Part shown: positions 30,765 through 59,652 of the stretch, piece after piece
Numbering within the stretch: position 1 is the first letter of the stretch
Layout: every line of letters starts with the position of its first letter
Source: Allodiplogaster sudhausi
Taxonomy: Eukaryota > Nematoda > Chromadorea > Rhabditida > Diplogasteridae
NCBI GenBank assembly: GCA_945643635.1
Contig: CALZFC010000082.1
Span: 1,133,501-1,197,500 of the forward strand
Length of the DNA stretch: 64,000 bases
Direction: 5' to 3'
Notes under the pieces: model-generated
Told to the model about the DNA's origin: nothing
Databases searched by the model: none
What the model saw: the letters and a program-made list of their open reading frames with translations, nothing else
Translations under genes and position numbers: made by a program

Positions 30765-31818
30765 TCAAGGAATGGCCGAGCAGACGGCCTTCGTTATGGC
30801 GATGGTCTGGTCGCGCGCGAGCCGCCAGCCAGAGCCGTCAGCCGCGCACGTGAGCACCTCGGTAGGGCCGGGCACAACGCCGTTGGCGCCGCTGTTCAGC
30901 TGCGCAAATAATACCCATTTGAATTTGCCGCGCATTTTCTCACGGCGACGATGTCGTTATGGAATTTAGAATATGCCACTCACTGTTTGCCATTTATGAC
31001 GATAGGAAAAAGTTCTCAAATTACAGTTTTGACAATTTTTGCTATCGGTTATAATGACAAATAGTGGAACTTTAGTAATTCCAGGGCAACATTTACTGGA
31101 AAAAACCCAAATTGCATTTAGTTAATATCCGTCTTATACGTATGTGCGTGTTTGCAGATATTGACGATTTTGTTCTCGAGATAAATATATATTTGTGAGG
31201 TTATGTTTTAAAGGAATACAGAAGAAAATGCATGAAATCTTTGAAAAAAACCAATTTTTTTTTGTTGAAAAATCTGTTCATCTATTCAGAATAAATTTTT
31301 AAATTTACATAATACTAAATCTCGACCAAACCTCGATGGTCGCCTGCGTGCCGGTGCAAGTGAGGGTTAGGGTGCCGCAACCGTCGGCGCCCGTGCCGAG
31401 AACGGCGCTGTCGAAGGCCTTCTCACCTGGCCCGGTGCCGGGTGCCAGATTCACCTGGGCCTCGGTGCACGAGGCGCAGGCTATGCGTGGGAAATTAACT
31501 TGGTTTGCCACAAGTTATATAAGAACGTAAATTGCACAATCATGAAGAAGTCTTTTTGTCTATAATTTTTAAATATTAAAGAAAAAAATGGCGAGAGGAT
31601 ATTTAGCTTTCAATTTTTTTTATACTTTTTTTAAGCAAATGCATACATTTATGAGTATGGATCCCTCTCTCTGATATATGTACATATGAATGTACATATT
31701 TCTACATACTGTTAGGGGCGGGCGTTGTGACTGGTCGAACGGCGCCACACGCATACGCAGACGGCAGAATCGACGCAGCGATGCATATCGAAAACACGGC
31801 AAGTCTAGGGTGCGACAT
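30765..31818 (-). CDS. Secreted C6-domain protein (intact copy 1)
   Basis: Three exons: 31710-31818 (109 nt), 31332-31480 (149 nt) and 30765-30899 (135 nt), with phases 1 and 0. Exon 1 is a signal peptide ending YACGAVRP plus a short Thr/Pro linker. Exon 2 has CASC, then QVNLAPGTGPGEKAFDS, DGCGTLTLTC and TGTQATIE. Exon 3 has NSGANGVVPGP, EVLTCAADGSGWRL and TKAVCSAIP plus TGA. The six cysteines, CxxC start, GC-x5-TC core and C-terminal TC ... W ... VC pattern match the nematode C6 domain family (Pfam C6), whose function is unknown. Predicted about 130 residues, extracellular. Exon lengths and splice phases are shared by all paralogues here. Upstream (31,820-32,790) is the repeated cassette spacer. 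Confidence 0.85.
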
Positions 31819-33147: not shown

Positions 33148-34201
33148 TTAAGGGATGGCCATGCAGACAGCCCTCGTGATGGTGATGGTCTGATCGCGGC
33201 CGAGTAGCCAGCCCGAGCCGTCGGGCTTGCACACCAGCGTCTCCGGCGACGGCAGCACGCCGTTCGCGCCGTTGTTGTACTGTACATATTTATTTTTTAC
33301 TATTTAAATACAGTATGACCAAAAGTTTAAAATAAAACTTTTTTTTGAATTTCGCGCCATTCCACGAATAAGAATGTGGAGTGCTCACATTCAAATGAAT
33401 TAAAACAAAAAATTTTTTTACAGTTGTCGCATACATACTATGTGAAAAGACATGTATTGATAAAATTTTGTGTCCAAACGATAGAGACATATTCTGTGAG
33501 AGTCTGTAATTGAAAGGAATTAAGAAGAAAATAAAAGAAATCCTTAAAAAATAGTTGAAGAAGAAGAAAAAGAGTTTAATCTCGGGCTTCTACGTTTTCA
33601 CTTTGATCTACCTCACTTTTGATCTACCTCACTTTTGATCTACCTCACTTTTGATCTATCTCACTTTTGATCTACTTCACTTTTGATCTACCAAACCTCG
33701 ATCATCGCTGCTGTGCCGGTACACGTGAGCGTGAGGGTTGCGCAGCCGGCAGCGTTCGTTCCAGCGACGGCGCTATCGAACGCCTTCTCGCCTGCGCCCG
33801 TACCGGGCGCCAGATTCACTTGCGCTGGCGTGCACGCGGCGCAGGCTAAAGAGTGAGATGTAAAAAAAAACAAAAAAAAACAAATTGTTTTGCCACAAGT
33901 TATATAGGAACCGATATTGGAATATCATGAGGTCTTTTTTTCTCTAGAATTTTTCTAACACACAATATCTCTCTTAATATTAGAGACAAAGATAGCTAGA
34001 GCAATATTCAGTTTTCAATTTTTTTAACTTTTTTTTAAAGCATATATGAGTATGGGTCCCTCTCTTTGATATATGTGCATATTTCAACATACTGTTAGGG
34101 GCTGGCGTTGTGACCGGTCGAACGGCGCCACACGCGAATGCAGACGGCAGAAGAGAGGCAGCGATGCACATCGCAAAAACGGCCATTCTAGGGTGCGACA
34201 T
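33148..34201 (-). CDS. Secreted C6-domain protein (intact copy 2)
   Basis: Exons 34093-34201 (109 nt), 33697-33845 (149 nt) and 33148-33279 (132 nt) splice cleanly. The signal peptide is [20 protein letters not shown] followed by AFACGAVRPVTTPAPN. The domain shows CAACTPAQVNLAPGTG, AAGCATLTLTC and TGTAAMIE, then NNGANGVLPSPETLVC, KPDGSGWLL and TRAVCMAIP plus TAA, so all six cysteines are present. The predicted protein is about 129 residues and extracellular. It is closely related to the 30,765-31,818 gene in the same orientation, so tandem duplication is clear. A 16-bp minisatellite occupies the intron end next to exon 2. Alternative identity is unlikely; function unknown. Confidence 0.86.
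33597..33691. repeat. 16-bp minisatellite in C6 intron
   Basis: About six copies of acttttgatctacctc end a few bases from the minus-strand donor at 33696. The repeat is absent from the sister introns. Confidence 0.9.
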
Positions 34202-34885: not shown

Positions 34886-34967
34886 CCAATAATGGCTCTA
34901 TTCATATTCGTTCATTTCTTCAAAATTCAATTTCTTTATTTAACTAAGCAAAGAAAACAAAAATTTT

Positions 34968-35040
34968 CGACCATGGCAGGATTCGAACCTGCAATCTTCT
35001 GCTCCGTAGGCAGACGCGTTATCCATTGCGCCACACGGCC
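34968..35040 (-). tRNA. tRNA-Arg (anticodon ACG)
   Basis: The minus strand folds as a 73-nt tRNA. The acceptor arm ggccgtg pairs with catggtc, with two G-T wobbles, plus discriminator G. The D arm includes gcgcaatggataacgc. The anticodon stem tctgc/gcaga encloses loop ctacgga with anticodon ACG. The T arm is gcaggttcgaatcctgc. A ttttt Pol III terminator follows within about ten bases. No intron. Confidence 0.93.
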
Positions 35041-35530
35041 ACGTTACCTCGGCTCAAGATATTTCCTTATTGCAGCGTTGCTCGCGACAACCTTTTCACC
35101 CTTTTTCCCACTTAAAATTCTGACCATAAGTGCTAGAAATTATCTTTCAAATAAGTGATGACTTTGGCCAATAAAATTATGATCGTATACGGCAAGAGCT
35201 CTAATATATTCCATTAGCATCGCATGCTCCGAAGACGAAAATACTTTCATTTTCTATTTCGTTTTATTGTCGGGAAACTGAAAGAAGACACATGTTGCCG
35301 GGTACAAGAAACATTGCATTGTATTTCAAAATAATTATAACGAAGCAAAAATGCACATTTACCCTCAATCTTGATATTTCTAGATTTCAAACTTTCTACC
35401 AACTCATTTCGACGAATATTCAGCATAATTCAACAAATCTATCAACATCAGCTCGACGTCAGATTTTCTTAGCAGCTTTTTTCTGCTAATATATAGAAAG
35501 AAAAAAGTCACGTGTTGAAAGAACATATCA

Positions 35531-40450: not shown

Positions 40451-40737
40451 AATGTCTCTGCGACATTAACTAAATTTTTCTCTTTTATATTTATGCTGTT
40501 ACATTGAAATATGATTTCATGTACCATAAATAAATGAATGAATAAATAAATAAATAAACATCTGTAGAAGACGACTAGCTAGCTAGCTGCAAGTTCCTAA
40601 TCGCACATGAGGTAACATTTTTAAAAACAACGAAAATTGTTTTTACATATTATAGCTAATTGTAAGTACAATGATGGGTTATGGACCCTTGTGGGACCCT
40701 TTTGTTACCCCTGGGGGCCCTTGTTGACCCCGTATTC

Positions 40738-41303
40738 TTAGTTAACGGCCGAGCAGGTGGCCGCCGTGATGGGGATGGTCGGGTCGGTGAACCGCCAACC
40801 AGAGCCATCGGCCGCACACGTGAGCACCATGGTCATGCCTGGATTGTTGCCCATGGCGCCGCCGTTAATCTACAATAAAATAATACCAATTTGAATTTGC
40901 CGCCTTTCAAATGTTCTCAAAGATTTCTTTCTTTCATCTTCTACGAAAGTACATAGAAGATGAAAGAAATGTTCGAGAACATTTGACAAAGAGCAACTCT
41001 TATCCAGTTTATAAAAAGGAACTTATCAACTCAGAAGAAATCTTTATATAAAAAGAAACTATTTAAAATAACTAAAATACACTATAATCCAAACGAAAAT
41101 CCATAATATATGTATAAAAAGGAACTTACATAGGTATGTACTCAAAAGAGAAATCTTTTAAAATACAAGGAAAAAAGAGAGAGTAATCTCTCCATCTCTC
41201 TCTTTCTCTCTATCTCCCTCTCTCTCTATCTCGCTCTCTATTTCTCTCCTCGATCTCCTTTCTCTCTCTCTCTCTATCTCGCTCTCTATTTCTCTCCTCG
41301 ATC

Positions 41304-41395: not shown

Positions 41396-41677
41396 CTAAC
41401 TGCGATCGTCGCCGATATGCCGGTGCACGTGAGCGTGAGGATGGTGCAGCCGGCAGCGTTTGTGCCGGGCGCGACGTTCGCGAACGCCTTGTCACCTGCG
41501 CCCGTGCCGGGTGCAAGATTCACTTGCACCATCGTGCATGACATGCAATCTAAGCGCGTGAGATTTGGTTTTGGTTTTGGTTTTGTAGCAAATTGGGATT
41601 TTTTTTGCCACACAAGTTATGTACATTTGGGACATCATGAAAAAGACTTTGTACGAAAATTTTTCTGGCAAACAACA

Positions 41678-45785: not shown

Positions 45786-46660
45786 TTAAAGCGCCGAACA
45801 AACGGTACTCGTAATGGTGACAGTTAGATCTTCGACGAGCCGCCAGCCAGCGCCGTCTGCAGCGCACACGAGCACTTGGGTCGGGCCGGGTAACACGCCG
45901 TTGGCGCCGAGGTTCAGCTTCAAATAATACCCATTTGAATTTGCCGCCTTTTTCTCCCTGAATATTGTATTTGATATTCCACTGTATGCCTGCCTTTCCT
46001 ATCGCTAGGAAGAACGTTCAAAACTACATACATAGTACATACATACGTTCTGACACAATTTCATGCTGTGTCAGGAATGGTAAATTGTGGACAATATTCT
46101 AAATTCCTGGACAAAATATACTTTAAAAACCCAATAAGTTTTTAGTTGGCATCGATATATTTACAATATACATTTGAAAAAAGCATCTTGTTGTCTACTC
46201 ATAAGAAATCTTTCAAAATAATTTTTTAAGAGAAAAGCTACTCATCTAGGCAAACCTCGATGGTCGACAACCGGCCGGTGCACGAGAGTGTCAAGGTGGC
46301 GCAGCCGGCAGTGTCCATGCCGATCATGGTGCTCTCGAAGGCCTTCTCGCCTGGCCCGCCATTCGGCGTCAGGTTCACCTGGTCCATCATGCACGTACTG
46401 CATGGGGCTAAAAACATGTGCATGTAGTATGGAAAAAAAATGAATCTTTCTCTCAATCTTTCGCTCCCTCTCTCTCTCTCTTTCTCTCTCTCCATCTCTC
46501 TCTATCTCTATCTCTCTCTCTCTTTGATATACGGTATTTATACGTACATACCGGCAGGGGCCGGAGGGGCCGGAGGGGCCGCCGTAGTGGTAGTTGTAGT
46601 GGTCGGCGTGGTGGTAGTTCTAGGGAGCGGAGTAGTAGTAGTTGTTTGTAGGGGTTGCCG
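45786..46660 (-). pseudogene. C6-domain gene that lost its signal-peptide half-exon
   Basis: Exons 2 (46256-46407: CSTCMMDQVNLTPNGGPG, AGCATLTLSC) and 3 (45786-45917: NLGANGVLPGPTQVLVC, AADGAGWRL, STVCSAL plus TAA) are open and in phase. Exon 1 survives only as its Thr/Pro linker (46550 to about 46660: TTTTTPLPRTTTTPTTTT, APPAPPAPAG). Beyond that the sequence passes abruptly into a GA microsatellite, and no MSHPR signal peptide is present. Exon 2 and its introns are a near-identical inverted copy of 59030-59555, whose own exon 1 is complete but which lacks exon 3. Without a signal sequence this copy should not make a secreted product. Confidence 0.8.
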
Positions 46661-47321: not shown

Positions 47322-48117
47322 ATGGCCGTGTTTGCGATGTTCATCGCTGCCTCGCTTCTGCCGTTTGCATTCGCGTGTGGCGCCATGCGAACGACTACAA
47401 CGCCGACTCCTATCACAATGCCGGGACCTGCCCCACCGCCGGGCTCTGCACCGTCGCCGGGTCAAGCCCCAACGCCGGGCCCTACCCCAACGCCGGGCCC
47501 TACCCCAACGCCGGGCCCTACCACAACGCCGGGCCCTACCCCAACGCCGGGCCCTACCCCAACGCCGGGCCGTACCCCAACGCCGGGCCCTACCCCAACA
47601 CCGGCCCCTCGTATGTATAAATATGTATATCAGAGAGAGGGAAAATTTACTCTTTTTTTTACCATATATATTCATAAAAACTAACATCTAGGCGCGAAAG
47701 CAAATTGATCTTTCTAAAATCTCACATGCTCTTAGCCCCATGCGCCACGTGCACTATGGAGCAAGTGAATCTTGCGGCCGGTACCGGACCAGGCGAGAAG
47801 GCGTTCGATGGCGTGTTCCCTGGCAGGAACACTGCCGGCTGCGCCATCCTCACGCTCATGTGCACCGGCGAAAGAGCAACGATCGATGTTAGCTTCTTTT
47901 TTTAGTATTATTTTAAACGATTTCTTCTGAGTAGAGACATAGAAAACTTTTTCAGTATTTTAGAAAGATCCAAATGGGTATCATTTTGTAGTTGAACAAC
48001 CGTGACGACGGCTCTGCGCGGCGGACGGCACCTGGCGGACCGCTTTGAACCCGACCATCCCCATCATGAAGGTCACCTGCTCGGCCGTTCCTCCTCTACC
48101 ACTGCAAGACCGTTAAC
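47322..48117 (+). pseudogene. C6-domain gene with lost start codon and broken exon 3
   Basis: Exon 1 (47322-47610) keeps the family sequence, but the usual ATG-TCG-CAC is ATA-TCG-CAC at 47307, so the first ATG is five codons later ([15 protein letters not shown]). The linker is expanded by an 18-bp repeat into many PTPGPT units. Exon 2 (47736-47887) is intact: CATCTMEQVNLAAGTGPG, AGCAILTLMC, TGERATID. Exon 3, from 47992, starts with LNN but has a deletion and a frameshift before CAADGTWRT. The correct frame resumes to IPIMKVTCSAV, then a 20-odd base insertion precedes the expected GTTAACTAA. A shortened secreted protein is possible but would lack the last two cysteines in frame. Confidence 0.75.
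47440..47605 (+). repeat. 18-bp coding minisatellite (PTPGPT linker)
   Basis: About eight or nine copies of ccaacgccgggccctacc keep the reading frame because 18 is a multiple of three. They encode a proline/threonine-rich, mucin-like stretch. Confidence 0.92.
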
Positions 48118-48282: not shown

Positions 48283-48888
48283 ATATGACGCGATTTGCGA
48301 GAGTATCAAAAAGGCCGGGGACCCGGCAAAATTAGATTTCGCTTAAAAGCTGTTTATAAGTACTTTTTAACACGGGGAAACGAATGGAATGGGTCCGGGA
48401 GTCTAAAAACGCCATTTCGGCGAGCTGTGCGAGATTTAAAATGTGAGTGCCCGGTGAGGCTTGCCGAGATGGCCGCACATTCGCGTTCGCTGTTTCGCGC
48501 AAAATAAAGCTATTTTCGTGAAATTTTGGTATTACATAGACAAGATATTGTTTTAAAAAGCTACTCAATTAGAATTTGAAAATATTCACTTTTAGGACCT
48601 CAGCGGCCTCTAGACTTTGAGGAAGCGTCGTTAGCTTAAATGGCATTATGTCATGGGTTTTCTATTTTAAGTTGTAGAGCTGAAAATTCTCTATCGAATG
48701 AGCTATCGTGTGCCTGATATTCACGAGGTCTAAGATGTTTCTCAGCCATTTAACTGTTCAGTACCAGCGCATCGGCGCGCACTTCGCATATGCGCTGCCC
48801 CCGCTGGAAGTCCAACTCAATCGATATTCCGCCGAAAGGCACTTGAGGAAACTTCTTTCGTGCATTAACGTATCTTTTCACTTTTTCC
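48283..48888 (+). repeat. Left terminal inverted repeat
   Basis: Reverse complement of 54628-55239. Matching landmarks are ccggggacccggcaaaatta, gagtgcccggtgaggcttgc, gcgcatcggcgcgcacttcg in context, and cgtgcattaacgtatctt at the inner border. Both arms contain the same 60-residue frame by chance of homology; I do not regard it as a gene. Confidence 0.9.
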
Positions 48889-49775
48889 TTTTAATGTCTT
48901 GTATAAGATGGTTTGTTTTATGTATCTTTCGTTATGTATATTCTGTTATAATACAGCTTTCCTCGCTTATTTAGCTATAATGAGCTGTTTTGTATCTCGT
49001 GGATTCGCTCCATCGGTGTCAGCGTCGTTTCGTTTTCGCCCACGTACTACCTGCGATGGAACGTTCATCAAGTCTGTTATTATACTTGTAAATATGTTAT
49101 TTTTTCCCCATTTATAACCAGTCAGTCAAATGAGCGCATAAAATTATAACCACGGATGTCCGACGCATGCACAAGAAGCGAGCAAAAACGAAAAACCTCA
49201 CAGAACTTTATCCCATTCAGTTGTGGTTAAGCTAGCCCCCTCCCACTGTTGCGCTGTCCAGACTCCAGAGGATCATTGGAACTAACGCTAATATAAAAAG
49301 GGCGGGGGGCTGTTTAACTATTAGGGAGGAAGCAGGTAAAGCTTGCTTTTGCTGTTTAACTGCTCTCTCGGTCGGAACCTCCCTCGGTCATCGCTGCCTT
49401 CATACTCTCTCTATATCGAAAAAGCCGGATAGTGTCGGTTGCGTGACTCGTTATGCATGCTTCCAAACGCCTACGAATTCTTCCTTGAAAATGTCAGGAA
49501 ACAACTCTGAGTAAAAAGGCGCCCTAAAAAAGGCGGATATTTTGAATGCCGAACCACTTTTACCGAGTGCTGTGCAACACTGACCCAGTCAGTTAGATAA
49601 TGGGATGACAAGGGAGGGCTAATGTGAAGACCCTTGCTGTCTAAAATTAAAGTTATCTGTTTTATGCCGATCGGTCAGCTTATAATTAAGTTTCATAATT
49701 ATAAGATTCAGCTATCAATGGCTTATGTGTACTTTCTTTTCTCGACGTAAGAGTAATGCAGAATTTCCACGCTTC

Positions 49776-52700
49776 TCGATGATGCTGATTGCGAGCTCTA
49801 TGGGTGCAGGAACAAAGCAGACTTGCTTTTCATTCGCGGTGTTGCAGAGTATTACGATTGGGACGATTTGGTGACTAAATGCAATCAAAGTTTTTTTTAA
49901 ACACTTTCTAACAGAAGTCTTTTCAAGCAAACCTGAACCGAATCTAGTTTTTAACATTTCAGCCCGATGATGTACTCGAGTCTTGTGTCTGTGAGACCCA
50001 TTTGTATGAGTTGGGCGAAGGATGGGAAGATCAGAATTACAAGCATGTACTGACTAAGGTGCAGCTAATAACAGATTATTATTATACAACGAAAACGAAT
50101 ACAGAAGCGACACTATTGCTGTTCTGTACCGGATGGTCACCGCACGAAGAAAACTGTTTCGAACGAATATGTCATGCACTGCAAGGATACCCTGCGGCTT
50201 CTCCGAAAAACGAACGTCCACATGTGGCCCGGTTCTCGTAAGTAAATAAAACAGTTTGCATTGATGCTAGAAATATTAAAATATATTATAAGACATTGTC
50301 TAATTGGAAGAAAAAAAATAATTTTAAGGATGGTGCCCTACTCACAGAGATGATCTACGATCAAATACTCCTGCATCCTCACAGGCAGACAAGAAAAGTT
50401 CTTAATCTGTGCATCTATTCATCTTGGGGTTCAGATTGCCCAAGTGGAGAGGTCGGATGATGAATCGACAGGATCTGAATACGAACCGGAGATGGAGGAG
50501 GACCCTCCTCTGCCGTACATGAAGAAGACAGCCAGTTCTGCCGATTCAAAGGTCTTCTTATCAACTAAATCTTTACTTAACTTTTTTAAAGTAAAATCTA
50601 ATCCCGCTTAAATTAAGGGGTTTACGTGTGTTAGGTTTTATTGAACATGATTTATTTTAGGTAAAGAATTGCGTTTTGGCTCTAGCGGACACACTAAATC
50701 TTACAAAGATGGAAAGGAGAACTGAGTGGTCAATGACTTCCGAAAAAACAAAACAGAGAAAAGCTAGCGGAGTTCGGAAGATTCTCGAAAGCGTTTGCGA
50801 GGTATGTACATGTAACGTTGAAAATTAAATATTAGCTAACTTTTTTTTTGTCCTTTACTATTTAAAGTGAGTTCCATTCGTTTAAAAAATAATTATGAAG
50901 GTTTATGCCCCGGAAGCCAAAGAGGAACTTAAGCAGAGAGCTATTCGCCCGGACATCCAAAAACTCCAGTCAAACTCTGCAAATGTCAGCTTACTTAATT
51001 TACCAACGAATCTAAATTTTCATTATTTTATTGATGAGTAGAATTTCAGTCACACGTCGCTCGATTATTGGAAGATGTTGCCCTTGTCTTTAACTCGGCC
51101 AATTCGCGTGATGAACGATTGTACTCTCTGGCAACAGTCACCAGTCTGCCTTATGATCAGGTTCAGAAATATGAAATGGTAACTTAATGCGAATGATTAA
51201 ATGTGGAGTAGCTCCGAAACGAAAATAGATTTAAAAATACTGCGGCATTCGGTGAAAAGATTTATTTAAACATATTTCTGTTAATTCAGATAAAGCGGTA
51301 CATAGATGTTTCGTCGTATTTCTACAACAAGGCAAAGAAGCTTGCGGCAACTGGAGAGCACGTTGAGGTTGAACAATACTGCCAAATATTGAAAATTTTA
51401 TTATTTTCTGAAGGTATAATGGTCGTTATTCAAAATTCAAAAATAATGATTGTTTCTTTCCAGAAAGAGCCAATTACACGATGCCGTTATAGCAAACATG
51501 CTGTCAGAGAATTCGTGACTTTCCTACTAAGGTTTCTTTCTTTTACATTCTTATAATTTGAAGTAATTTTTTTTAGTATAAATGAAATTCTTTGGCCCAC
51601 TTGAAGCAATCAAATATTAGAACGTTTGAGCTCGGTTGCTGCGGCAGGACTTCCGTTCGGAGAACGTGAAATAAAACGTTCGGACGGCACAGTCATCAAC
51701 ATCCCCAGCATGCTAAGAAAACTGAATGCATCCGAGCTCACACGTCTCTACACAAAGATGTGTGAGGAAAGGAATCAGTTACACCTCCGACTTACACGAT
51801 CCACAGCCATGAAAATCATTTCGTTGGTTCTGCCCGAGAAGAGGAGAAGTCTCTCATGTGTTGATGAAACACTGGTCTGCGCGCTTGAGGTACATATGCA
51901 TACATATTTTACGGTATACCAACGAATTCATTATTATTATTGGAACCAAAGGAGAGGAAAATTTAAAATTTACAGGCATTCGAAAAGCTAAACTGCGTTA
52001 TTGACAGAGCAGTTACGCTGCAAGGAATTGACATAGAAACAGCATCATCACTCAAACGCCGACTATCATTGGCCAAGAACTACCTTCGCTCCGATTACAG
52101 AGTTCACGTGGCGCTAGATTCTAGGTGCTTAGTGTACATAGCTCTGGCATTTTAAAACAATTATCAGTAATATTTAAACTAGTTGTGCATCTCACTGTAC
52201 TCTCCACGCACTGAGTGACCCGTCAACGATGGAATTTCATGTGGCTTGCAGTCATACGCATGTCGTCGAATGTGAGAGGTTAATTAAAACAAAATTGTTG
52301 CAAGTGTATCCTTGGGAAGTTGATAATTAAATTTAAGCTGCGCTGATGTCGAAGCAATTCAAACGCTAGTTTTGGACACCTTGAAGCTCGCTTCTGAGGA
52401 CACCCCGTTTGTTTCTATCCACATTTATGAAAACGATTCGATAACATCATTTTAAATCTAACAATTAGGTCCGGAAGGGAGTTGCTGGAGTATGCAGAGA
52501 TCTACTTGAACGACATAATGCTCTACAGAAATCACGTAGTGAGATCATCCCACTCAGCGATCATCAAGTCGCAGATTGTTGAGAGTCTGACACCGAATTC
52601 AGCCTTGGTTACCTGTGACTGGGCGCAGAAGTACCTAGCGCGATTTAGTCGCGAGGTCCAATCAGCATATTTCGGGAAAAAGGTTACTTTAAATTTATTA

Positions 52701-54501
52701 ATCAGATGTATTCATGCATACATGGGACGATATTTTAAACACAGTAATATTCTATTTTAAAGGGAATATCTTGGCATGTTGTACATGTGCTATCGTTCGA
52801 TGGTAAGGAGTACAGACAGCATACATTTTATTTCATCTTTGAAGACTCGATCAAGCAAGTAAGACTGTTCAAGAAATTATTAGCATCTCATATAGGAATG
52901 AAATTTACAGAATTTGTCGCCTTTTAGGATGCTTCGGCCGTTGCTGCCACTTTGTCTTATGTGCAGAAACAACTGTATTCGCAGGGAATCGAAGAGGTGA
53001 CTCTACGAAGTGACTGCGCAGGTAAGTGATTGTACTGGAACTTTAAAATTCAGTTTAAAACCCAACAGAAGCTTTATGAAACCAAAATTAATTTGTGAAA
53101 ATTAATAAGATTTTCAGGCTGCTATCGAAACACAAGCTTAATGGCATTCTTGCACCATCACAACGGAAGACCAGACGCTAGGGTAACAGCCTACACGTTT
53201 TCAGAGCCCCAATGCGGGAAAGATGCCTGCGACAGGATGGCTGCTCAGGCATGTTATAGTGAAACTCGATTGTTTAAAACCAATCTTATTATTCTGAAGT
53301 GCTTCCATTACAGGCGAAGAGAAAGGTAGCAGAAAGTTGTGATGCTGGTTTTGATGTCGCAACTCCTGCTCAACTAGCGGAAGCTATTCTCTCTGGAAAT
53401 GCTCTATCCGGTTGTTCCGTGATTCTGTGCCGCCTGAATTCCATACCTTCCAAGTCCTGCGCAATTGATGGCATCTCGAAGCTGTCTCATGTTGCCTTCG
53501 AACCTGCAACTCTCCGCGTCTTCAAGCATGCAGGAATCGGAGACGGACGGGTTGAGGACGCTTCGCGTCTCACGCCGGTCGACTCAACACTTGAAATAAT
53601 AAGTCAAGGCGGATTTCTTGCTGGAGATTCCCTCTTTTGGGGCGGAAGAACACCGCGCACTACCTCGCCTTCCATTCCCGTCAAGGACTCTCCAGTGTAT
53701 CGTTGTCACGCTGAACACTGTGCTTTGGAGTTTAACAATTATGCTGATTACGAGAGGCATGAGCTGCTGGAGGACCATCGTCCCCATTTGGAGCGAGAGA
53801 CCCTTACTGACTATGTCCTTTCCCAATTCGCTGCAAGAGCTGAGACTGTCGGTGCGCTGCACGCCGCAACTGCATTTGATATTCTGTCTACAGCAGCGGA
53901 TGGTGTTGAGGTGCAACAACTGGAGATGGGTTTCGCATTAAAAACCGGCAATCGCCCTTCAATTGACGCCGAAGCCAGGGCTTACATACAGGTACATACA
54001 TACTTTGCCTAATCTATGAAATATTCTAAGAGGAATAAGCCGACATTAAAACTCAATATAATTTTTGGAGTTGACCATAAAAAGTCATAATTAAATAGAT
54101 GTAATCTTGAAATAATCAAGAGTTAAATCTAAATATTTCAGATCGCCACAGAGCAGTGCTGGGCCGCGGAGAAGAGGGCGGATGCGGCCATGATTGTGAA
54201 GCAGATGTGCGCAGTTGCGGAAAACGGGCGCCCCAGATTTCGTCCAAGACAAATACCAACAACGCAGCAGGCTCACGGAGTGGTATTGCGACAACTGAAG
54301 CTCTTGCAAGCATTTCCCGATATGAAGGGAAATCGAGGAGTGAAGGATTCGGGAGTGCCGGAAGTGGACGAGGAGGAGGAGGATGAAGAACCATTCACCC
54401 CAGACCCTGAGGAGCTTGTGAGCAAAATTGAGAGCATGAAGGGCGAACTTTTCGCAACAGATGAGGTATCCCTTGAGCCCGCTAAGAAGATTAAGAAGTA
54501 A
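49776..54501 (+). CDS. Transposase-like protein of the long-TIR element
   Basis: I read these exons: to 49870, 49963-50237, about 50450-50551, 50661-50802, 50901-50984, 51050-51178, 51290-51367, 51464-51531, 51607-51889, 51976-52124, 52183-52278, 52338-52406, 52469-52682, 52763-52858, 52928-53021, 53118-53248, 53314-53991 and 54142-54501. Phases agree from 50661 to the stop. In order the protein has CELYGCRNKADLLF with ESCVCETH (zinc-ligand-like), a helical middle, and a second Cys/His cluster (CASHCTLH, HVACSHTHVVECESC). Next comes the core CDWAQKYLARF / FGKKGISWHVVHV / RSDCAGCYRN / FSEPQCGKDACDR, then a C2H2-like finger (CHAEHC ... HELLEDH) and an acidic tail ending KKIKK. The core spacing suggests an RNase H-like DD(E/D) nuclease, which is inference. 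Similar uncharacterised proteins exist in cnidarians, from memory. N-terminus not defined; the third exon's border is uncertain. Confidence 0.78.
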
Positions 54502-54627
54502 TTTGAATAATCAACAAGGTTTTACCGTTCTGAATTTTTTAATGTATTTAATTTCTAATTATTGGTTGTTGCTATCGGTTTCATTAAAGTTATATTTTCG
54601 CTTAATTTTTGCATATTATTAAATAAA

Positions 54628-55239
54628 AGTGAATAAAGATACGTTAATGCACGAAAGAAGTTTCCTCAAGTGCCTTTCGGCGGAATATCGATTGAGTTGG
54701 ACTTCCAGCGGGGGCAGCGCATATGCGAAGTGCGCGCCGATGCGCTGGTACTGAACAGTTAAATGGCTGAGAAACATCTTAGACCTCGCGAATATCAGGC
54801 ACACGATAGCTCATTCGATAGAGAATTTTCAGCTCTACAACTTAAAATAGAAAACCCATGACATAATGCCATTTAAGCTAACGACGCTTCCTCAAAGTCT
54901 AGAGGCCGCTGAGGTCCTAAAAGTGAATATTTTCAAATTCTAATTGAGTAGCTTTTTAAAACAATATCTTGTCTATGTAATACCAAAATTTCACGAAAAT
55001 AGCTTTATCTTGCGCGAAACAGCGAACGCGAATGTGCGGCCATCTCGGCAAGCCTCACCGGGCACTCACATTTAAAATCTCGCACAGCTCGCCGAAATGG
55101 CGTTTTTAGACTCCCGGACCCATTCCATTCGTTTCCCCGTGTTAAAAAGTACCTATAAACAGCTTTTAAGCGAAATCTAATTTTGCCGGGTCCCCGGCTC
55201 TTAAGCGTCCTTACGATTCTCTCGCAAATCGCGTCATAT
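54628..55239 (-). repeat. Right terminal inverted repeat
   Basis: The mirror of 48283-48888. A small unequal patch lies just inside the tip: about nine bases differ in length between gagtatcaaaaaggcc on the left and the corresponding right sequence. Confidence 0.9.
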
Positions 55240-56370
55240 ATCGTAGTCTCTCTTTTTTTTATTATAAATTACAGCTTCTTTCGGTCTGATCGCATCGCGG
55301 CTAAACCGCTCGCTCGCCTTTTCTCAACGAGACCTTTTGCTCGGCTGTTTATTGCTATCCGTTTTTCGTGTGGCTGCTCGTAGAATTTGTTATTATTTAT
55401 TTCGTCAATGCATCACTTGTTGTTGCATTCCCATTCGCTTCCGCATTCGTTGCAATCATGCTAAATGCAAAATAATAGCGCAACAAGGAGTTCCTTTTTG
55501 TGCTATCATTTTGCTTTCTCTTCTTTTATCGTCCCCTTCTTTTAGTCTGCTTCCTATTATCTAGTTCATTCTCTCTTCTTCTCCATAGTCTTCTTCTCGT
55601 TCTATTACTTCCAGGGCATTGGTCAAGGCAGGATTAAGCAAACGCTTCGCGCGCTTCCATCGTTTCTTCCCGTTTCCTTCCTTCATCCCAGCATCTATTC
55701 TCTCTTCATTTGTTACTCGTTCATTGACAAGATTAAGGCTCTCTTTATTCAAGCCATTTATTTCCCTAGAGGTGTGTGAATAAATTTGTAAATTATTCGA
55801 GTTGGTCCAGTTTTCAAAACCTTATTAAGAGTCAACAGTCAAAGGTGCTCAATAGTTTCCAGTCTGCCGGTCAAGTCCCCTGCAAATATGTATATATTGC
55901 ACTGATACATAGCATATGTAATTGATAAGATATGTTTCGTCACATTATTCTTGATGTGTGCATAGATAAATGAAAAAAGACTGTCCCCTTTTTTCTTACA
56001 GAAAAGACATGAGGCGAGGACATTACTTACAGTTAGATTACCTGTATTTTGGAACTTGAAGCCTCTCATGTAAATAAATGCGACTTCGACGAAAAGAGTA
56101 GATTTTTTCAGCATGGAAGAAAACGATAGGAAGGTTTTTATAACTTTTTAGGGGTTAAAAGCAAATTGTTTTTGTAAACATCGTCTGATATTGTATTCAG
56201 AAGTTGTAAATGGCTGAAGGCTATACAATTTTTGAACCGGTTTACTCGTCTGGTCCCGGAAGGGCTCGCATCGGATGGCCCTGACAATTTCCTGGCTCTA
56301 TAGTTAGGGGACCGATTTTCAAATTCAGGAAAAATAATTAAACTATGTATGTACCTTAAAATTATAAATA
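55240..56370. other. Spacer right of the transposon
   Basis: Short frames only. None has a plausible splice partner, and no tRNA or repeat was recognised. Confidence 0.35.
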
Positions 56371-56371
56371 T

Positions 56372-56713
56372 ATGAGAAAGAGAGGTCAGAATGAGAAAGA
56401 GAGGGCAGAATGAGAAAGAGAGGGCAGAATGAGAAAGAGAGGGCAGAATGAGAAAGAGAGGGCAGAATGAGAAAGAGAGGGCAGAATGAGAAAGAGAGGG
56501 CAGAATGAGAAAGAGAGGGCAGAATGAGAAAGAGAGGGCAGAATGAAAAAGAGAGGGCAGAATGAGAAAGAGAGGGCAGAATGAGAAAGAGAGGGCAGAA
56601 TGAGAAAGAGAGGGCAGAATGAGAAAGAGAGGGCAGAATGAGAAAGAGAGGGCAGAATGAGAAAGAGAGGGCAGAATGAGAAAGAGAGGGCAGAATGAGA
56701 AAGAGAGGGCAGA
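56372..56713. repeat. 19-bp minisatellite, about 18 copies
   Basis: Near-perfect copies of gagaaagagagggcagaat, with single-base variants at the start (gaggtcagaat) and in the middle (gaaaaagag). The 19-bp period is not a multiple of three. The minus-strand frame therefore cycles through all three frames and yields a 19-residue pseudo-repeat (LSHSALSFSFCPLFLILPS) that is not evidence of a protein. Confidence 0.96.
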
Positions 56714-57049
56714 AACAATAAGTAAAACAAATCATTTAAAACATCTTATAATAGGAAGAGCATTTTAAGTTTTTGAATAAGCATATACAATTCTATGAGC
56801 CATATTTATGGTCGCAATGAAAGAGAACAACGCGGTGGATAAGAATGAACACAAAAAAATTTGACGTCCTTTCTGTCGGCTTCCCTCCATAACCCGCAAC
56901 AAGTGCCCGAGACTGACATAACTAACAAGATAATGGTCAACAACAGAAAAATTACAACCGTTTAAAATTTCAAAAAAAAAATTGCCTTCTGTGAAATGGT
57001 ACTGTTGAAAACTGTATTAGAATATAATTCGTGAACGAACGTGTGGCCT

Positions 57050-58822: not shown

Positions 58823-59345
58823 ATGTCGCACCCTAGAATTGCCGTGTTTGCAATGTGCATCACAACTTCGCTTGTGCCGTCTGCATATGCGTGTGGCGCA
58901 ATCCGGCCGACAACTACTCCGATCCCTACAACTACCACTACTCTGACCACAATAACTACCACCACGGCAACCCCTACAACTACCACTACGGCGGCCCCAC
59001 CGGCCCCTCCGGCCCCTCCGGCCCCTGCCGGTATGTACATATAAATACCGTATATCAAAGAGAGAGAGAGAGATAGAGATAGAGAGAGATGGAGAGAGAG
59101 AAAGAGAGAGAGAGAGGGAGCGAAAGAGGGAGAGAAAGATTCATTTTTTTCCATACTACATGCACATGTTTTTAGCCCCATGCAGTACGTGCATGATGGG
59201 CCAGGTGAACCTGACGCCGAATGGCGGGCCAGGCGAGAAGGCCTTCGAGAGCACCATGATCGGCATGGACACTGCCGGCTGCGCCACCTTGACACTCTCG
59301 TGCACCGGCCGGTTGTCGACCATCGAGGTTTGCCTAGATGAGTAG
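58823..59345 (+). pseudogene. C6-domain gene lacking its third exon
   Basis: Exon 1 (58823-59030) gives signal peptide MSHPRIAVFAMCITTSLVPS and a long Thr-rich then Ala/Pro-rich linker (TTTATPTTTTTAAPPAPPAP). Exon 2 (59176-59327) gives CSTCMMGQVNLTPNGGPG, AGCATLTLSC and RLSTIE, with only four of the six cysteines. The following intron is near-identical, inverted, to that of the 45786-46660 locus up to about 59555. There it jumps to sequence matching 44965-45057 in reverse, skipping the segment that holds exon 3 there. Unspliced reading adds VCLDE and stops at 59345. A truncated secreted four-cysteine product is possible, but the copy is probably non-functional. Confidence 0.8.
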
Positions 59346-59652
59346 CTTTTCTCTTAAAAAATTATTTTGAAAGATTTCTTATGAGTAGAAAACAAGATGC
59401 TTTTTCAAATGTATATTGTAAATATATCGATGCCAACTAAAAACTTATTGGGTTTTTAAAGTATATTTTGTCCAGGAATTTAGAATATTGTCCACAATTT
59501 ACCATTCCTGACACAGCATGAAATTGTGTCAGAACGTATGTATGTACTATGTATGGTTCTACTCGACTTGCGGTGAGCATACATAGAGCAGGCTATTGAT
59601 TGCAACTTAAGATCCAAGCGAGCAAGAACTTGAGTAGTCCTTGAGGAAGCTC

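Follow-up and report, generated by a model that had tools for sequence, protein, structure and literature searches.

A Transposon-like Element with Long Terminal Inverted Repeats and a Twenty-exon Gene for a Probable DDD Transposase in the Nematode Allodiplogaster sudhausi

Results

A 64-kb stretch of the genome of the nematode Allodiplogaster sudhausi (assembly GCA_945643635.1, contig CALZFC010000082.1, forward-strand positions 1,133,501 to 1,197,500; hereafter the window) contains a transposon-like element of 6,949 bp at 48287-55235, flanked by 4-bp repeats at 48283-48286 and 55236-55239. Terminal inverted repeats (TIRs) at both borders, a single open gene, a conserved triad of aspartates in the product, and an RNase H core in the predicted models of two relatives of that product make it very likely that the element belongs to the TIR order as an autonomous DDE/D-type transposon. 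We conclude with high confidence that this is a DNA transposon, probably young and probably recently active, whose gene encodes a DDD transposase of 1,064 aa with the predicted fold of RNase H and integrases.

Ends of the element

The limits of the element are set by the two borders, both of which read ATAT followed by GACGCGATTTGCGAGAG, a spacer, GCCGGGGACCCGGC, and an inner block. A preliminary description of this DNA had placed inverted repeats of about 0.6 kb around a single gene between 48283 and 55239, and this agrees with the TIRs of 591 bp and 601 bp and with limits that correspond exactly to the element plus ATAT on each side. The left TIR (48287-48877, plus strand) is composed of a 17-bp outer block (48287-48303), a 10-bp spacer (48304-48313), the palindromic GCCGGG-GA-CCCGGC, and the inner block; the right TIR (54635-55235, minus strand) has the same blocks, with the complement of the outer block at 55219-55235 and a 20-bp spacer at 55199-55218. 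The palindrome, with its 6-bp arms, lies directly inward of the spacer at both ends.

Apart from the short spacer the two TIRs are approximately 99% alike. The inverted arms at 48314-48877 and 54635-55198 are 564 nt long and 99% complementary, making them the longest among the inverted pairs listed for the 64 kb, and from the palindrome inward the left and right copies differ at only four positions. A gapped alignment of the ends that omits the first base of the outer block (593 versus 600 bases) has 585 shared columns, five mismatches, and 13 columns with gaps, which fall mainly within the spacer. The 564-bp inner TIRs are nearly identical, a likeness that the spacer immediately outside them lacks; either the insertion is recent or gene conversion has acted between the arms. 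The TIR sequence has no further match anywhere in the window, which thus holds no second copy of the element, and no repeats of at least 14 nt were found inside the left TIR. A search of the window for an empty site using the joined 300-bp flanks matched, besides the flanks themselves, only two neighbouring pieces at 40652-40784; both correspond to the left flank, and the nearer one stops 84 bp short of the border.

The ATAT copies at 48283-48286 and 55236-55239, identified by reading the borders, are a candidate 4-bp target-site duplication, and the chance of four agreeing positions is approximately 0.004 at the local composition. The duplication may alternatively be TA, in which case the element would end in 5'-TGACGCG; from one copy ATAT and TA are equally readable. 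The flanks differ from TTAA, the target duplication given for piggyBac and Kolobok elements (PMC9587614).

The two spacers are dissimilar in sequence and differ in length by exactly 10 bp, such that the distance between outer and inner blocks is larger at the right end by about one helical turn. With one copy at hand this difference may be due to chance. By analogy with the 12/23 spacers of RAG signals, unequal ends could enforce the pairing of one left end with one right end, and the unequal spacers make such a pairing rule testable.

The transposase gene and its product

The gene lies between the TIRs on the plus strand at 49491-54501 (stop codon included) and was derived from splice sites, phase, and homology. 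The model has 20 exons, consistent with the earlier estimate of at least 18: 49491-49510, 49762-49870, 49963-50058, 50105-50237, 50385-50551, 50661-50801, 50901-50984, 51050-51178, 51290-51367, and 51464-51531 (exons 1-10), and 51607-51889, 51976-52124, 52183-52278, 52338-52406, 52469-52682, 52763-52858, 52928-53021, 53118-53248, 53314-53991, and 54142-54501 (exons 11-20). The 19 introns are 46-251 bp long, 18 of them GT-AG and one GC-AG, and there are no internal stops. The start codon and exons 1-6 (residues 1-222) are placed by splice sites and phase, and the match to the profile of relatives covers residues 249-998.

The product has a distinct architecture of a Cys/His cluster, a compact DDD core, and a C2H2 finger, all encoded on the plus strand. 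The cluster, CASHC...CSHTHVVECESC (52183-52406, exons 13-14; residues 487-519), precedes the catalytic core and is a probable zinc site; C516 is a cysteine in 21 of 26 alignment rows, with four gaps and one other residue. The first catalytic aspartate, D591 in CDWAQKYL, is encoded in exon 15 (52469-52682) and was assigned from the alignment and from its place on strand beta-1 in the predicted model of the relative P0001. The second and third, D673 in RSDCAGCY and D714 in GKDACDR, are encoded in exons 17-18 (52928-53248) and were assigned from the alignment; in the P0001 model the counterpart of D673 follows beta-4 and that of D714 lies on the last helix of the core. The triad is conserved in the family, with 81 and 40 residues between the acids, and the motifs singled out in the preliminary description (DWAQKYL, SDCAGCY, and FSEPQCGKD) are all present with clear counterparts in the relatives. 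Exon 19 (53314-53991) encodes the end of the catalytic domain and the C2H2-like finger YRCHAEHC...H (cysteines 850 and 855), where the profile of relatives matches the C2H2 finger of a solved structure with an E-value of 2.5e-05.

Relatives of the transposase

We found 25 distinct relatives. Querying with the catalytic portion of the product gave eight (E≤0.001), and querying with an alignment of six of these gave 18, including 17 new ones; both searches scored only the approximately 8,000 candidates sharing most words. With P0022, whose prediction is visibly chimeric, set aside, a profile built from the other 24 gives the window product a score of 436 bits; among 200 shuffles of that product the highest score is 1.8 bits. 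Open segments in the six frames of the window number 2,092; nine of them match this profile (E≤1), all inside the element and on the strand of the gene. None of 126 IMG/VR stretches that fit the search patterns encodes a relative, and neither do any of the eight fitting stretches in bacterial and archaeal GTDB contigs. The clusters behind the relatives can be large (157 member sequences for P0011 and 82 for P0016), a size that would fit repeated copies but may stem from redundancy.

Source names are available for five of the relatives, and every one of them is a cnidarian (Oculina, Porites, Paramuricea, Actinostola, and Acropora), bearing out the mention of uncharacterised cnidarian relatives in the preliminary description. 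Identity to the window protein in the catalytic region is 31% for P0012 (Oculina ACROYT_G026285), 32% for P0014 (Porites), 21% for P0015 (Paramuricea), 21% for P0022 (Actinostola), and 23% for P0024 (Acropora). These proteins, known here from their protein sequences and labelled only hypothetical, unnamed, uncharacterised, or C2H2-type, share the Cys/His cluster and DDD motifs where the sequence reaches, with P0022 deviating at two of the three acids and P0024 at one. Identities across all relatives range from 21% to 35%, the highest being 35-36% with the unnamed P0001 (36% is the figure from the tree alignment). In a tree restricted to rows with over 150 core residues (22 in all, namely the window protein and 21 relatives), the window protein forms a long branch that is placed close to P0008 and P0007, though weakly (support 86/67 and 80/79), and there is therefore no close kin among the relatives found. 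In P0007, a transposase relative that stops before the third acid is fused to a long N-terminal stretch unrelated to it; the fusion is either a gene-model artefact or a captured domain.

Domain and fold searches

Searches of Pfam listed no transposase or integrase family for the window product (E≤10), scanned as a 1,041-aa version of the model with part of exon 13 missing, and four single-exon stretches and the product had only matches below the families' own cut-offs. For the 24 relatives (E≤1), no transposase or integrase occurs among the 25 families listed out of 27 matched; the scattered matches are led by AsnC_trans_reg2 (E 0.0014, in two members), and zf-C2H2 occurs in three members. The Pfam models taken to represent Merlin, PIF/Harbinger, CACTA, Zisupton, and Ginger were listed for neither the window protein nor the 24 relatives, with the proviso that distant members can escape such a search. 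None of the 25 relatives has precomputed Pfam domains, and NCBIfam, searched with three of them, gave two matches for one relative, far below cut-off. Among sequences of solved structures (E≤0.001) the family profile matched only a C2H2 finger protein, with no integrase or transposase sequence match.

The predicted models of two relatives, the first of low confidence, have an RNase H core that is closest to retroviral integrases among the matches listed. For P0001 all of the best 50 matches listed are retroviral integrases, a listing from which the absence of other transposases excludes none of them, and in a viral structure library (E≤0.001) four of seven matches are named as retroviral integrase or Pol and three are nameless.

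Neighbouring features

A second recent inverted duplication, at 46027-46645 and 58928-59555, flanks the element and lies outside it. The two copies are 95.6% identical over 630 alignment columns and 99-100% in the outer approximately 413 bp, and contain coding pieces resembling C6, a nematode domain. Copies of a cysteine-rich segment (for example CASCTEAQVNLAPGTG...GCGTLTLTCTG) occur at 31350-31478, 33715-33882, 41419-41547, 46274-46402, 47741-47869, and 59181-59309; Pfam C6 is the sole match, below cut-off, in two of four such segments scanned (E 0.0058 and 0.018), and gave no match for one such segment among another five stretches scanned. Together with the short introns, this gene family is in keeping with a nematode host. 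An open frame with 18-bp tandem repeats at 47380-47627 has a signal-peptide-like start and Pro/Thr-Pro-Gly repeats, and a tandem array of a 19-bp unit with nearly identical middle copies is present at 56277-56808. A tRNA-Arg (ACG) gene was identified by ARAGORN on the minus strand at 34967-35041, where Rfam also reports a tRNA.

Discussion

The preliminary description had the element as a long-TIR, intron-rich transposon of uncertain superfamily, whose predicted core fits none of the hAT, Tc1/mariner, MULE, piggyBac, CACTA, Kolobok, or Merlin signatures. The long TIRs and many introns stand, as does the lack of a match insofar as Pfam lists no transposase or integrase family, but its list of superfamilies was incomplete, omitting Sola, Dada, Novosib, Academ, Zator, Ginger, IS3EU, P, Transib, and Zisupton. 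The odds as to superfamily are split almost evenly between a Sola-type element and one that is as yet undescribed.

It is possible, though we hold this tentatively, that the element is a divergent representative of Sola, a superfamily already described, with Sola2 the likeliest placing; the likeness to Sola2 is one of description only. Sola transposases have a DDD triad, as does the product here. In dictyostelids, Sola2 is described as having AT-rich 4-bp target duplications that include ATAT and a large transposase of 888 aa, but with TIRs of 12-21 bp in place of the approximately 600 bp seen here (PMC3627910). Sola elements have also been reported in nematodes, Sola-3 in Pristionchus (PMC9297572) and others in C. 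elegans (PMC12239620). A further point against this reading is that TA, not ATAT, may be the duplicated target in the present element.

A possibility with much the same tentative standing is that the element belongs to a superfamily still undescribed, whose transposase is on record only among uncharacterised proteins of cnidarians and database entries without names. Consistent with this are the distinct architecture, the lack of Pfam transposase or integrase families for the window protein and its relatives, and the lack of precomputed domains for any of the latter. By eye, the C/DxxH motif (PMC9587614, PMC3706591) is absent between D673 and D714 of the product, and no title recognised as describing such a family appears among the literature listed, with most subscription papers outside its coverage; the same literature gave no result for a PANTHER name associated with the cnidarian proteins. 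Absence from Pfam is a weak argument, however, because it is unconfirmed that Sola, Dada, Academ, and others have models there. Moreover, a family so widespread may already be named in Repbase, because cnidarian genomes are well curated for transposons. The fuller proposition, that cnidarians and a nematode share an undescribed superfamily of DDD transposons of which this element, with ends differing by one helical turn, is the founding member, we regard as quite improbable.

It is unlikely that the element falls into one of the other named minor superfamilies whose core resembles an integrase (Ginger, IS3EU, IS481EU, Academ, Novosib, or Zator). The predicted proximity to retroviral integrases would suit such a placing, as would the target duplications reported for Ginger1 (4 bp) and Ginger2 (4 or 5 bp) (PMC10045372), but similarity of fold by itself does not separate superfamilies, and the Pfam searches above listed no integrase or transposase. 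Finally, local inversions do occur, because the flanks hold a second one (46027-46645 and 58928-59555), but it is highly improbable that an inverted segment came to surround a host gene by coincidence, or that the gene is a domesticated transposase, given that the arms begin and end around one transposase-type gene, have identical 17-bp termini with ATAT outside, and have no other match in the window.

If the element is indeed an autonomous TIR transposon, the spliced product would enter the nucleus and bind both long TIRs through its C2H2 finger and its N-terminal zinc-binding and helical parts. The metal site formed by D591, D673, and D714 would then cut the paired ends beside GACGCG at both termini and join the 3' ends to the target at slightly staggered positions, the repair of which would leave ATAT (or TA) on either side. 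We infer the cut-and-paste mode, the activity, and the exact duplication length from these features. An intact copy with clear ends provides a cut site and a likely function for a group of proteins filed as uncharacterised in corals and anemones. Should it prove to be Sola2, the cnidarian proteins gain a superfamily and the host a young autonomous member; otherwise, a further superfamily of cut-and-paste transposons in eukaryotes, new to the record, becomes definable and testable.

Several known systems share features with this element. Retroviral integrases typically have glutamate as the third catalytic residue, where this family has aspartate. The predicted fold of the relatives and the placing of the three acids resemble those of the retroviral integrase core and of Mos1 (Tc1/mariner), but there is no sequence match to them among solved structures and the flanking domains differ. 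For Tc1/mariner, a TA duplication is possible from the one copy and the fold is alike in one relative's model, with no Pfam transposase match. Zisupton elements have a target duplication of 8 bp, and the element has no match to a KDZ-type Pfam model; similarities lie in the multi-exon gene, the size of the proteins (up to 1,400 aa in Zisupton), and the occurrence in diplogastrid nematodes (PMC9297572). The hAT, P, MuDR, Kolobok, and Dada elements have DDE/D chemistry and TIRs in common with it, and differ in having C/DxxH between the second and third acids (PMC9587614, PMC3706591). With Sola2 the element shares a possible AT-rich 4-bp duplication, a single large transposase, and the DDD triad.
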